This document shows, one piece after another, positions 3,601-38,039 of a stretch of 39,282 nt of DNA (position 1 is the first letter of the stretch; each line of letters begins with the position of its first letter). Both the position numbers and the translations under genes were made by a program. The notes below the pieces were generated by a model. It did not search any database. It saw nothing but the letters and a program-made list of their open reading frames with translations, and was not told where the DNA came from. This DNA comes from Candidatus Rifleibacteriota bacterium (lineage in GTDB: Bacteria; Muiribacteriota; Ozemobacteria; Ozemobacterales; Ozemobacteraceae), in assembly GCA_012517355.1 (NCBI GenBank), contig JAAYVD010000129.1, forward strand, positions 1 to 39,282, in the 5' to 3' direction.

Positions 3601-3808
3601 GCCGCGACACGATCCGCCTCCCGCCCCGAGGCGCATTCCTCCCACCCGCCGCCCCGCTGACCCCGCTGACACGAGGGCAGCCGTTCCCCATCGAAGGCGG
3701 CTGGCAACGCCCGTTTCGCACATCGGAGGGGAGCCGGCCACCGCTTCGAATGGCCCGCCGGAACCCTCATCGTGACCCTGCTCCCGCAAGGCGGTGAGTG
3801 GTGGGGAC

Positions 3809-19214: not shown

Positions 19215-21104
19215 TCAGCCCGCGCCGGCCAGCAGGAGGTGTTCGGCCAGGGTGAGGGCGTCGACGGGCCAGAACTCGGGCGGGCGGGGCCGTTCGACCC
19301 CGGCCAGGCCATACAGCGGCCGGCAGGTCAGGACGCGGTCGAGCCACTGCAGGGGGAAGGCCCGCACGCCGTGCACGGAGCCCAGCAGGGCCCCGGCGAT
19401 GGCGCCGTTGGTATCGGTGTCGCCGCCGGCCTCGACGATGGCCACCAGGCCGTCTTCCAGGGAAGGGGCGTGCAGCAGCTGGTAAAAGGCGGCCTGGAAC
19501 GCCTTGAGCACGAACCCCCGGGGACTGGCCTCGAGCACCGGCATGCCGTGGGCGGTGGCGGCGGCCTCGAGGGCGGCGGTCACGGTGGGATGGACCCCTA
19601 TCGCCGCCGCCCGGCCGCAGGCGAACCCGTGGACCTCGCGAGCGGGGGCCCCGGTCCGGATGGCGTGGGCCAGGGCGGCCACGAAAACCGCCGAACAGTC
19701 GGCGCAGACCGGGTGGGGATGCGTCAGGCCGGCATCCTGCCGCGCCATCTGCTCGAGGGCCTCCACCGGCCCGTCGCGGCCGGCCCCGAAGATGCCGAGC
19801 GGGGAAACCCGCATCAGCGCGCCGTTGGCCTGGCTGTCCCGGTTGCCCTTGGTCTGGACCGCCTGCAGCAGGTTGCCGCCGGCGGCCAGCGCCGCTTTCA
19901 GGGCCCCCAGGCCCGTGCGGGTGGTGTTCCCGATATCGAACGGCTCCGACGTCAGCCAGTGGCAGTAGGACCGCGCCACCGCCTCGAGGTCGAAGCCCTT
20001 CTTCGCGACCAGGGAACGGGCCAGCATCAGGGCCAGTTCGGAATCGTCGGTGGGCTGCCCGGCGATGGTGCCCCAGGGGCCGCCGTCGATTATCCGCCGC
20101 AGCCCCTGGGGGAACTCGGCCTTCACCTGGGCGCCGCTCTTGAACTCGCCCAGTTCGCCCAGCGCATCGCCTGCCAGCTGCCCCAGCAGGCAGCCCTGGG
20201 CCCGCGCCAGCAACCCGGCGTCGGCCACGTTCCGGCCCGGGGCGAGCTTTTCGGGCCCGGACTTCTGCCCGATCTCCTGGACGCCCGCATGGCCCCAGTC
20301 GCGCCCCAACAGCCACACCGCCAGGGCCGGCGCCCCGGCGGTGCAGGGCGAACCCACGTGGGCACTGCCGTGCCGGTCGTAGGAGACCGGCAGACCACTC
20401 GCGGTGAGCATCACGCCGCCCATGCCCGCCACCAGCGCGTGACCGCCGGCGATGTCGTAGCCGCCCGGGCCGCTGGTGGACACGCAGGCTTCGCCTTCGC
20501 CGGCGGCCACCAGGGCCAATCGGTAGGCGATGCCGGGCACCCCGCGGAACCGGCACGGCGACACGCGCCGCCGCCAGGTGACCACGCGTTCGCTGGCGTT
20601 CTCCTTGCAGAGCACGGTCACGGCCGGCCCCGGTTCGGCAGCCCAGACGCGGGGTGGCACCGGCTGCCCGTTGCGCAACACGGCCGGCATCCCCCTCGCC
20701 CAGGCGAACAGGTCGCCCTCGTCGGTGGGAGCCGCGAAGGCGAAGACCACGCCGAGCACCGGCTTCCCCTCGTGGACGAGACCGATGGACACCGCCGACC
20801 CGCGATACCCCTTGAGGTAGGCCGCCGTGCCGTCGTTGGGATCGACGAGCCAGACGAACCCGGAGGTGCCCGGATCGGCCACGCCGAGCTCCTCGCCCAG
20901 GTAGCCGTGCTGCGGGAACCGCCCCCGCAGCAGGTCGTGGATCACCCGCTCCGCCTCGGTGTCGGCCAGGGCATGGTGGTCGTCCTTCTTCCGCGGCCCG
21001 CCCGGCCGGTGGAAGTCCTGCAGCAGGATGGCCCCCGCCGCCCGGACGGCCTCGATGGCAACTTCCAACTCTTTGTACAAATCACCATTTCCGTTGGCAG
21101 CCAT
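19215..21104 (-). CDS. Inositol-monophosphatase / ADP-ribosylglycohydrolase fusion
   Basis: The 629-residue protein is a two-domain fusion. Residues 1-275 are an inositol-monophosphatase-family phosphatase (also the fold of CysQ and fructose-1,6-bisphosphatase): GEELG at 70-74 (Glu71, Glu72), VDPNDGT at 87-93 (Asp88, Asp91) and GGYDIAGGHAL with Asp217, all metal ligands of the Li-sensitive phosphatase site. Residues 300-629 are an ADP-ribosylglycohydrolase (DraG/ARH-type): GCLLGQLAGDALG, PTDDSELAL (351-359), NGALMRVSPLG and AGGDTDTNGAIAGALLG (559-574), with the Mg-binding Thr-Asp-Asp and Asp-x-Asp motifs present. Both halves look active. The substrate of neither is known. The start at 21104 follows AGGAGG at 5 bases. 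A promoter candidate lies at 21160. The gene could be read through toward sbcD only across a 233-base gap. Confidence 0.93.
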   Translation of the reverse strand: MAANGNGDLYKELEVAIEAVRAAGAILLQDFHRPGGPRKKDDHHALADTEAERVIHDLLRGRFPQHGYLGEELGVADPGTSGFVWLVDPNDGTAAYLKGYRGSAVSIGLVHEGKPVLGVVFAFAAPTDEGDLFAWARGMPAVLRNGQPVPPRVWAAEPGPAVTVLCKENASERVVTWRRRVSPCRFRGVPGIAYRLALVAAGEGEACVSTSGPGGYDIAGGHALVAGMGGVMLTASGLPVSYDRHGSAHVGSPCTAGAPALAVWLLGRDWGHAGVQEIGQKSGPEKLAPGRNVADAGLLARAQGCLLGQLAGDALGELGEFKSGAQVKAEFPQGLRRIIDGGPWGTIAGQPTDDSELALMLARSLVAKKGFDLEAVARSYCHWLTSEPFDIGNTTRTGLGALKAALAAGGNLLQAVQTKGNRDSQANGALMRVSPLGIFGAGRDGPVEALEQMARQDAGLTHPHPVCADCSAVFVAALAHAIRTGAPAREVHGFACGRAAAIGVHPTVTAALEAAATAHGMPVLEASPRGFVLKAFQAAFYQLLHAPSLEDGLVAIVEAGGDTDTNGAIAGALLGSVHGVRAFPLQWLDRVLTCRPLYGLAGVERPRPPEFWPVDALTLAEHLLLAGAG

Positions 21105-23398: not shown

Positions 23399-23435
23399 GC
23401 CTCGTTCCCGACCGACAGGGGGCCGGGAACACCCA

Positions 23436-23480
23436 TTGCCGCCACGGATGGCGGCACGAAACGCCCGGTTCGCGCCCCGC
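23436..23480. repeat. Palindromic dispersed element, copy 2
   Basis: Stem-loop GCCGCCA-CGGA-TGGCGGC at 23438-23455, then ACGAAACGCCCGGTTCGCG. It shares the stem, loop and the downstream TTCGCG with copies 1 and 3. It lies in the intergenic gap between the convergently arranged 5' region of the MFS gene and the 3' end of the PLC-like gene. The rest of 23305-23603 holds only the promoter candidate. Confidence 0.7.
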
Positions 23481-23603
23481 AAATGGCCGACCGGAGGCTG
23501 GGCAGGCCTCCCCACCGCCTGGGGCACGACCCGTTCCGGAAAGGGAACAGGGTCCGCGGCCGGCCGCCGTCAGGCGGCCCGAACCACGGACCCTGGAGGA
23601 AGA

Positions 23604-34916: not shown

Positions 34917-37900
34917 ATGACCACACCCGTTCCGAGCGTCACGCGCCTGCTGTTCATCGACGTGGTGGGTTTCAGCAAGAAATCCATCCACGTCCAGAAG
35001 GCGCTCATCGAAACGCTCACCGCGATGGTGGCGGGACTGCCGGCCTTCCGGGCCCTGCCCGAGTCCGACCGGGTCGCCCTCCCCACGGGCGACGGCATGG
35101 CCATCGGCTTCTGGAGCGACCCCCCGGTGCCCCTCGAGGCGGCCATCCAGCTGCAGGGGCGGATCAAGGACCACAACCAGGCCGCCCCACCCTCCATGCA
35201 CATTCTCGTGCGCATGGGCATCAACACCGGTGAGGTGTTCACCATCGTCGACATCAACCGGCACCGCAACGTCGTCGGCGACGGCATCAACAACGCCCAG
35301 CGGGTCATGGATTTCGGCGACGCCTGGCACCTGCTCGCCTCCGAAACGGTGGCCGACGAACTCGCCGCCGCCGACCCCCGCCGCCGCGACCTCCTCCACT
35401 TCGCCGGCACCTTCGCCGACAAGCACGGCGGCCGCCACCGGATCTACAATGTCTACTCCGACACCTTCGGCAACCCCACCCCGCCCACGCGAGGGAAGGT
35501 GCCCGAACCAGCAGGGGAAGCGGGGTCCGACCGACACGATGGCGGCCATACCCCTTTGCCGCCACGGATGGCGGCGCCAAACGCAAGTTTCGCGTACCCC
35601 AAGGAGGCCGCCCCGTCCCCCCAGTCAGCCTCCGACCCGGCCGCGGGGCCCCATCACCCGGGGAGCCCGATCCCCGCACCCCCGTTCGGCGCCGCTCCCG
35701 CTGCCCCCGCGGGACCCCCACCCCTCGGCACCGCCCCCGCCGCACTCCAAGGACCCCAGCCCGCCGGGCCGGCCCCCACCGGCCCCGCCACCCCGCCGGC
35801 GCCCTCCCGCGAGGCGGGCCCGGCCACCGCCGCCGCCCCGTTCCTCGACCGCATCCTGGCCCTCGCCGCCTGGGAGGTCCGGTTCCTTCAGCACGCCCAG
35901 CTCGGCCCCGACCACCTCTTCCTCGCCCTGACCAAGCTCGAGGACGGCCGCACCGGACCCGCCCTCGCCGCCCAGGGCCTCGACCCCACCGAGCTCCGCC
36001 GCGGCCTGCGACAACTCCTCGGCCGCGGCAGCCGACCAACCCCGCGGGAAATCCCCTCCGACGCCGCCGTCACGGAACTGCTCGACTCCCTCCGCCGGCT
36101 CGCCCGCACCACCGGCCGCGACACCGCCGAACGCGACCTCGCCCTCGGGCTCTTCACCCTCGATCCGACGGGCCGGTTCCTCCCCTTCCTCACCAGCCGG
36201 GGGTTCGACCAAAGCCGCTTCCTGGAAGCCTTCCAGGAAGGTCAGGAGTATTCCAGCCAGGTGCGGTCCCTGCCGGCCGCGAGCCCTGACCCCTTCGCCT
36301 CGACCCCGCCGACGCCAGGCCCCGCCCCATCGGGACCACGGCCCACACCCGCCCCCGACTCCGCACCGCCCGGCCCGCCACCGCCGCCCTCCGCCCCCGC
36401 CTCGGAACCGCCCCCCGCCCCGCCCGCCCCGCCCCGGCCCGGCGCCACCCTTCCCGGTCCCTCCGTTCCGCCAGGCTCCGGCAGCACCCTTCCCCAGCCC
36501 GACCTCGCCGAGGCCACCGTTCCCGCCGACGCCACCGTCATGGCCGGCCCCCCCCCTGGCTCGGTGCGGGTCATCCTGACCGTCGAGGAAGGCCCCGCCA
36601 AGGGCCGCCGCTTCACCTTCGCCGAGCCCGAGGCGTTCATCGTCGGCCGCTCCCCCGAGGCCAATTTCACCCTCGGACGCGACGATCACGCCGTGTCGCG
36701 CAAGCATTTCCTCGTCGAGGTCGTCCCCCCGCGCTGCTACCTGAAGGACTTCGGCAGCCTGAACGGCACCTTCGTCAACGGGCGGCGCGTCGACCGCGTG
36801 GAACTGTCCGACGGCGACCTCGTCAACGTCGGCATGACCTTCCTGCGCGTCCGCCTCGAGCGGTCCGCCACCCCCGCCGCCGCCGTCTGCCCCCGCTGCG
36901 GACAGGCCTTCCTGGCCACCGCCGGAGACCCCCGGCCCCCCGCCACCGGCGGCCCCCCCCTGTGCCGGGCCTGCCAACAGGAGGAGGAACTGGCCGCCGC
37001 CGGCCGCGAGGCCAGGACCCGTACCCGGGTCGCCGCCACCTGCCTGGGCTGCGCCGCCGACCTGTCGGCCGGCGCCAACGACGACGGCCGCGGGGTCGAG
37101 CTCGACGGGGTGGCCACCTACCTGTGCCCGGCCTGCGCCAAGGCCTGGCGGCGCCCCGTCGAGCAGGACCGCATCGACCGGTTCGAGATCCTGCAGGAAC
37201 TGGGAAAGGGCGGCATGGGCGTGGTCTACCTCGCCCGCGACCCCGCCACCTGCCGCCTGGGCGCGCTCAAGATGGTCCTGCTGCCCAATGCCGATGCCGC
37301 CATGCTGGGCCGGTTCCGGCGCGAGATGAAGATCATGGAACGGCTCGTCCACCCCAACGTGGTCAGGCTCTACGACCAGGGCGAGGTGCATGGCTGCCCC
37401 TGGTTCGTGTCCGAATTCCTGCCGGGCGGGAACGCCGCCCAGCTCCTCACCCGCACCTACCAGGGGCCCCTGCCCGTCGGCGTGGCGGCCCGCCTCATCC
37501 AGGACGTCCTGGCCGGGCTCGCCTATTTCCACGAGACCGGCGGCGTCCATCGCGACATCAAGCCCGCCAACATCCTGCTCCCCCGCACGACCGACGGCGC
37601 CCCGGGGCCGGCCAAGCTGGCCGATTTCGGCCTGGCCAAGGGCTACACCGAGATCGGCGGGGCGACGCTGACCCGGCCGAACGAGTTCGCCGGCTCGATC
37701 TTCTACACCGCCCCCGAGCAGATCCTGTACTTCAAGAAGGCCGGCGCCACCGCCGATCTCTATTCCCTCGGCGTGGCCCTATACGAGCTCGTTTCCGGGA
37801 AATTCCCCTTCGATTTCCCGACCCAGCTCGACACGTTGAAAGACCAGCTGCTCGGCCGCCAGACCCGGGACCCGCTCCTGGTCGTCCTGGAAGACCCGGC

Positions 37901-38039
37901 CATCCCCCTGCGCGAACGCGCCCCCACCCTGCCGGCCGGCCTGGCCGCGGTGGTCGACCGGGCCATCCAGCGCGACCCCGCCCGGCGGTTCCCCTCCGCC
38001 GGGGAGTTCGCCGCCGCGCTGGCCGGCGCCCTTCCCTGA
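34917..38039 (+). CDS. Cyclase-ClpN-FHA-zinc ribbon-Ser/Thr kinase protein
   Basis: The 1040-residue signalling protein has, in order, the following parts. A class III nucleotidyl-cyclase-type domain (8-185) has the metal Asp15 in LLFIDVVGFS, Asp59 in PTGDGMAIGF, RMGINTGEV, and Asn/Arg in VVGDGINNAQRV. Next comes a linker holding the palindromic element (213-229) and Pro/Ala-rich sequence. A Clp N-terminal-like double helical repeat (308-440) follows (EVRFLQHAQLGPDHLFLAL). A second Pro-rich linker leads to an FHA domain (551-648; VGRSPEANF, SRKH). Two zinc-ribbon pairs come next (CPRC 658, CRAC 683; CLGC 709, CPAC 737). Last is a protein kinase (755-1038; GKGGMG, Lys785, HRDIKPAN 878-885, DFG 903, APE 932). 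All kinase residues are present. FHA binds phosphothreonine; ClpN domains bind substrates or adaptors. No membrane segment. GGGGA precedes the ATG. Confidence 0.93.
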   Translation: MTTPVPSVTRLLFIDVVGFSKKSIHVQKALIETLTAMVAGLPAFRALPESDRVALPTGDGMAIGFWSDPPVPLEAAIQLQGRIKDHNQAAPPSMHILVRMGINTGEVFTIVDINRHRNVVGDGINNAQRVMDFGDAWHLLASETVADELAAADPRRRDLLHFAGTFADKHGGRHRIYNVYSDTFGNPTPPTRGKVPEPAGEAGSDRHDGGHTPLPPRMAAPNASFAYPKEAAPSPQSASDPAAGPHHPGSPIPAPPFGAAPAAPAGPPPLGTAPAALQGPQPAGPAPTGPATPPAPSREAGPATAAAPFLDRILALAAWEVRFLQHAQLGPDHLFLALTKLEDGRTGPALAAQGLDPTELRRGLRQLLGRGSRPTPREIPSDAAVTELLDSLRRLARTTGRDTAERDLALGLFTLDPTGRFLPFLTSRGFDQSRFLEAFQEGQEYSSQVRSLPAASPDPFASTPPTPGPAPSGPRPTPAPDSAPPGPPPPPSAPASEPPPAPPAPPRPGATLPGPSVPPGSGSTLPQPDLAEATVPADATVMAGPPPGSVRVILTVEEGPAKGRRFTFAEPEAFIVGRSPEANFTLGRDDHAVSRKHFLVEVVPPRCYLKDFGSLNGTFVNGRRVDRVELSDGDLVNVGMTFLRVRLERSATPAAAVCPRCGQAFLATAGDPRPPATGGPPLCRACQQEEELAAAGREARTRTRVAATCLGCAADLSAGANDDGRGVELDGVATYLCPACAKAWRRPVEQDRIDRFEILQELGKGGMGVVYLARDPATCRLGALKMVLLPNADAAMLGRFRREMKIMERLVHPNVVRLYDQGEVHGCPWFVSEFLPGGNAAQLLTRTYQGPLPVGVAARLIQDVLAGLAYFHETGGVHRDIKPANILLPRTTDGAPGPAKLADFGLAKGYTEIGGATLTRPNEFAGSIFYTAPEQILYFKKAGATADLYSLGVALYELVSGKFPFDFPTQLDTLKDQLLGRQTRDPLLVVLEDPAIPLRERAPTLPAGLAAVVDRAIQRDPARRFPSAGEFAAALAGALP
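35556..35600. repeat. Palindromic dispersed element, copy 3 (inside a gene)
   Basis: Stem-loop GCCGCCA-CGGA-TGGCGGC (35558-35575), then GTTTCGCGTACCCC (35587-35600). It is in frame in the cyclase-kinase gene and encodes PLPPRMAAPNASFAYPK (213-229). The upstream CACGATG block is also shared with copy 1, so the element may extend left to about 35535. Confidence 0.75.

Follow-up and report, generated by a model that had tools for sequence, protein, structure and literature searches.

The window considered here, the 39,282-nucleotide contig JAAYVD010000129.1 of the Candidatus Rifleibacteriota bacterium assembly GCA_012517355.1, holds a protein kinase gene with a palindromic segment that also occurs between genes. 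This raises the question of whether a small mobile element has been inserted in frame into a coding sequence. The first-pass annotation had read the segment in this way, and the reading is supported by hundreds of copies and by orthologues in which the extra residues are missing; neither of the two outcomes that it had named as refuting was observed. We consider it highly probable that the segment is a copy of a small dispersed element, which is non-autonomous, belongs to a Riflebacteria genus, spreads by copying, and is found in frame in genes. Its mobility is inferred from the dispersal of the copies, the orthologues without insert, and the presence of mixed arrays.

The element and its distribution

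All three stem-loops named in the first-pass annotation were located, with cores at 351-370, 23436-23455, and 35556-35575. As claimed, two of the corresponding full copies are intergenic (321-403, an AAGGGCT-linker variant, and 23408-23487, both on the forward strand and supported by core pattern match and alignment), while the third lies in frame in the kinase gene (35527-35607, forward strand, with a 74-bit profile match, an alignment, and coding signal on both sides). The core of this in-gene copy consists of TT followed by the hairpin GCCGCCA-CGGA-TGGCGGC on the forward strand. The stem-loop is thus real; however, the full unit measures approximately 81 bp, and the kinase copy adds 27 codons, about SDRHDGGHTPLPPRMAAPNASFAYPKE, instead of the 13 proposed. 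At its right end, the forward-strand junction reads CCGCCC (35608-35613), where CCNWCC is the motif preferred across copies. The decay suspected near 3690 was also real, but it concerns a decayed full-length copy at 3660-3737 on the forward strand (nhmmer 22.6 bits, E 7e-5) and not a right half. The host gene (34917-38039, forward strand) encodes a protein of 1040 aa, in which Pfam recognises Clp_N, FHA, and Ser/Thr kinase domains but no cyclase, and the former label of a cyclase-kinase is not supported.

The search for further copies in the genome was clearly positive. With up to two mismatches, the 20-nt core matched 308 times in the 7.1-Mb genome of this high-GC bacterium, and the reversed pattern did not match at all. 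A profile search returned 220 copies in a 1.19-Mb sample and none in the reversed sequence. As this sample comprises 60 stretches of up to 20 kb picked around copies plus the window, the genome total is an estimate only, exceeding 300 and probably lying between 500 and 800 copies.

The core stem-loop forms the centre of a longer, sharp-edged element, and in the profile, conservation drops to the background level no more than a few bases beyond the edges. The 81-bp consensus of subfamily A is CCGACCGACACGATGTCGG-AAGTG-CCCCTTTGCCGCCACGGATGGCGGCGCGAAACGCCCGTTTCGCGCATCGCAAAGGGG. Resolved into its parts, it reads CCGACCGACACGATGTCGG-AAGTG-CCCCTTTGC, followed by the hairpin GCCGCCA-CGGA-TGGCGGC (with GC in common with the stem), the hairpin GCGAAAC-nnnn-GTTTCGC, and GCATC-GCAAAGGGG. 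The linker occurs as AAGTG, CCATA, or AAGGGCTT, the last of which gives an 84-bp unit. Subfamily A (81 or 84 bp) combines a 19-nt hairpin I with a two-hairpin three-way junction, and the 60-bp subfamily B combines hairpin I with a single stem-loop. As a single strand, the element is predicted to fold with -48.2 kcal/mol (z -5.1) into the small hairpin followed by the three-way junction; part of this fold is lost in the in-gene copy and the copy at 23408 (z near 0 and -1.1, respectively). One variant (L117:780-832) has lost hairpin III and kept the outer stem (CCCCTTT...AAAGGGG).

With regards to host range, public genomes containing the core pattern suggest that the element family belongs to Candidatus Riflebacteria, as judged from rumen genomes that agree with relatives of the same family. 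Within the same genus, G002 showed 20 left-hairpin matches and 11 model matches; no model match was obtained in G001, also of this genus, or in 34 other relatives, and collections of phages and plasmids as well as IMG/VR gave no element either. In rumen Riflebacteria of another genus (L044-L064), a repeat occurs that shares the 18-nt core hairpin and is also predicted to form a three-way junction; its outer stem ends in TCGCAAAGGGG in some copies. The covariance model stayed below significance on these repeats (E 1.6 or worse), which are possibly of the same family as the element.

Copies within genes

To place the copies relative to genes, a codon-usage gene finder was trained on the sample (877 genes, 86% of the sequence). 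The 155 element sites are divided into 96 intergenic sites, 29 overlapping gene ends, and 30 within a predicted gene. For 22 of the latter, comprising 28 units in 16 genes, a clear coding signal was seen on both sides and in frame. These in-gene copies are found in either orientation and in all but one of the six frames, and are as well preserved as the intergenic ones. Besides the kinase, the host proteins include SpoIIE-domain and adenylate/guanylate cyclase proteins, a glucoamylase-like enzyme, and a PQQ-repeat protein. A frame bias was noticed among the in-gene copies (opposite strand, phase 1, 11/22); it reached p 0.0006 against a uniform expectation but only p 0.011 against the phase of CCNWCC in genes, and is not interpreted here.

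Orthologues without the segments were found in other genera for three genes. In the kinase, those of G005 and G012 lack the segment, in line with the original proposal; the linker around it is also longer in the host species than in these two. An AGE-family epimerase carries two inserts, and five orthologues that lack both can be aligned with it to the left and right of each; the first of these inserts consists of three units and amounts to a net gain of approximately 80 codons (81 expected). Compared with G014, a PPDK-like enzyme carries a net insert of 75 codons in a conserved stretch, which equals units of 28, 20, and 27 codons in the order A-B-A, the middle one belonging to the 60-bp subfamily B. 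Furthermore, a paralogous operon of the same genome, approximately 70% identical, is free of a two-unit array that is located at a stop codon.

Could the in-gene copies nevertheless be ancestral protein segments and no insertions at all? A single-frame coding signal on either side of the copy is what such segments would show, but the orthologues refute this for the three genes tested, the same DNA is intergenic at most sites, and unrelated proteins carry it in different frames and orientations. Moreover, codon scores within the element are negative at nearly all in-gene sites, as for non-coding DNA that is read through, and we give this explanation next to no credence. Another possibility is a functional RNA regulator or a terminator that has fixed roles in the spacers and was copied by recombination, which would agree with the stable hairpins and the mostly intergenic positions. 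It is very improbable in view of the random orientation relative to neighbouring genes (31 vs 25), the occupation of every type of spacer, the 22 in-gene sites, and the absence from G001 of the same genus; Rfam, searched with six element loci, gave no match above the gathering score.

The consensus units of 81, 84, and 60 bp are all multiples of three and free of stop codons in all six frames. Among the good copies, 51 of 69 have no stop in any of the six frames, and all but one (68) are open in five or more. The same sample contains three further families of dispersed repeats, with 36 copies of mostly 100-160 bp and zero to five open frames; none of these copies lies inside a gene, compared with 22 of the 155 element sites (Fisher p 0.017), a contrast that is partly built in since stops within a repeat would split the gene call.

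These other families were observed alongside the element and are themselves intergenic. The second dispersed family of the genome, of approximately 160 bp, contains the palindromes GGTCCAGGGCCATCGGCCCTGG and GAAGGGGCAAAGCCCCTTC and is present in around 20 copies in the sample (L097:17033-17191, L122:2564-2723, L098:1681-1842, and others). The third, of approximately 155 bp, contains CAGCATTTCGAC (L122:10216-10370, L116:10125-10278, L066:7201-7357, and others), and the fourth measures approximately 118 bp (L109:15916-16034, L074:16266-16382, L075:10766-10883, L091:6177-6276). In the window itself, a 79-bp stretch at 225-303 is approximately 90% identical to 20850-20928 and is probably a common gene segment.

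Insertion sites, arrays, and proposed means of spread

Neither a target-site duplication nor complementarity between the flanks was detected above chance. The right end prefers CC-N-[AT]-CC (CCNWCC), and the left flank is nearly random. Every copy begins with CCGACC at its left end, which fits this motif. Besides single units there are head-to-tail arrays; among 27 well-preserved pairs, the period is 81 bp in 21 and 84 bp in two. Several arrays combine different linker subfamilies, or units of A and B, which points to new copies having entered repeatedly next to one already present; others contain near-identical neighbours and resemble local duplications. Self-targeting through the CCGACC end would explain such mixed arrays.

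We know of no account of how in-frame palindromic elements move. The course of events that we propose for the Riflebacteria element starts with a copy entering a new site beside a CCNWCC-like sequence without duplicating the target, presumably by an activity supplied in trans. New copies would also insert next to old ones via the CCGACC left end and thereby build arrays. Because its length is a multiple of three and its six frames are stop-free, a copy in a gene could be translated through in any orientation and frame, adding 27, 28, or 20 residues. Such insertions would persist where the protein tolerates them and be purged elsewhere. Going further, the element may represent frame-neutral DNA, in which selection keeps every unit type a multiple of three and open in six frames, within an old three-way-junction family of Riflebacteria that includes the element of the rumen genus g11 and is mobilised by an enzyme that has so far not been connected with repeats of this kind; we put this forward tentatively, as a possibility that we would not bet on.

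Several observations weigh against the reading as a small element that spreads by copying. Neither transposition in progress nor an empty site matching exactly at the strain level was seen, and no mobilising enzyme was found when the RAYT-like gene and group II introns were examined. All six frames are open in approximately 11% of random sequences that match the element in fold and composition, so that selection for openness is plausible without being proven. In subfamily A, which varies too little for covariation to be informative, compensatory changes occur at 3 of 28 pairs, no more than in shuffles, and the fold therefore appears to be conserved mainly through sequence conservation. Lastly, array neighbours are more alike than random units (13% vs 16% different; 0/300 permutations), which indicates that some arrays arose from local duplication.

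As to the mobilising activity, the element might be a repeat of the REP/REPIN type, moved by the RAYT (Y1/HUH) transposase of the same genome. The only Y1/RAYT-like gene, for a Y1_Tnp protein of approximately 265-274 aa, is present in the element-carrying genomes G000 and G002 and absent from the element-free G001, a pattern drawn from three genomes only, and the missing target-site duplication together with the junction preference fits a single-strand mechanism. However, the RAYT genes of G000 and G002 (L170, L171) are flanked by a different repeat of the GGGGAC-TGATACCGAA type, with the element not at their ends, and 81 bp with three hairpins is unlike a REP of 20-40 bp; we regard this origin as rather doubtful. 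The ends of the Y1 genes in G005 and G009 were seen to be similar to the same GGGGAC-TGATACCGAA type of repeat. Less likely still is a SINE-like retro-element, the RNA of which would be copied by a reverse transcriptase such as a group II intron protein. The strong RNA fold would suit it, as would the group II introns with reverse transcriptase, of which G000 and G002 have intact copies and G001 a truncated one (L208, L209, L212), but this is a weak link drawn from three genomes, and the intron loci have neither an element nearby nor sequence in common with it at the intron ends. An autonomous version was also looked for in the sample, as pairs of left and right element parts around a cargo; none was convincing, and a single weak pair (21 and 17 bits) is probably due to chance. 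For the copying of the dispersed element, our preferred guess is that an enzyme encoded by the host acts on a structured single strand, though we would place only limited trust in it.

Comparison with known systems

In-frame palindromic elements have been described in Rickettsia, Wolbachia, and a single archaeon (PMC2996958). In the open literature that we searched, no element of this kind is described for Riflebacteria, which does not prove that none has been. The element adds a further phylum to this list, independently of the earlier cases. Its copies number in the hundreds and include subfamilies and arrays, its junctions show a motif, and one relative of the same genus is free of it. It makes testable what moves such elements and whether the stop-free, multiple-of-three design is selected, and the enzymes with inserts form a natural series in which the tolerance of proteins towards added segments can be studied.

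The nearest counterparts are the Rickettsia palindromic elements (RPE; Ogata 2000, 2002; PMC10969869), which are likewise small, palindromic, many-copy repeats that in part lie in frame in unrelated genes, where the peptide is tolerated. In its behaviour the Riflebacteria element is RPE-like, having many dispersed copies with dyad symmetry as well as copies in frame in unrelated genes the orthologues of which are without them. It differs in its 60-, 81-, or 84-bp units, its GC-richness, its six open frames, the use of both orientations and several frames, and its tandem arrays. As unit length and host lineage are different, the likeness is taken as one of behaviour, and neither common descent nor RPE membership by descent is claimed. 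The protein-coding palindromic repeats of Wolbachia and Methanocaldococcus jannaschii (PMC2996958) resemble it in being in-frame palindromic insertions, in unrelated lineages and compared here by description only.

Among the other short repeats, MITEs, ERIC, and RU-1 to RU-3 (PMC2759123, PMC2229807) are also non-autonomous, hairpin-forming, and sometimes intragenic. The Riflebacteria element, however, has lengths in multiples of three and neither simple spanning terminal inverted repeats nor the target-site duplication of a DDE-type MITE. The REP/REPIN repeats with RAYT (GTAG- and CGTC-tagged families, PMC3733652) share the dispersed hairpins, and a RAYT-like gene exists in the Riflebacteria genome as well; in contrast to them, the element is longer, has three hairpins and in-gene copies, and shows no link to the repeat flanking the RAYT gene. 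Finally, the palindromic amphipathic repeat coding sequences, or PARCELs (PMC2996958), are palindromic protein-coding repeats that spread within genomes too. While PARCELs are described as forming amphipathic protein repeat domains in tandem arrays, the Riflebacteria element occurs as single units in unrelated enzymes and is mostly intergenic.
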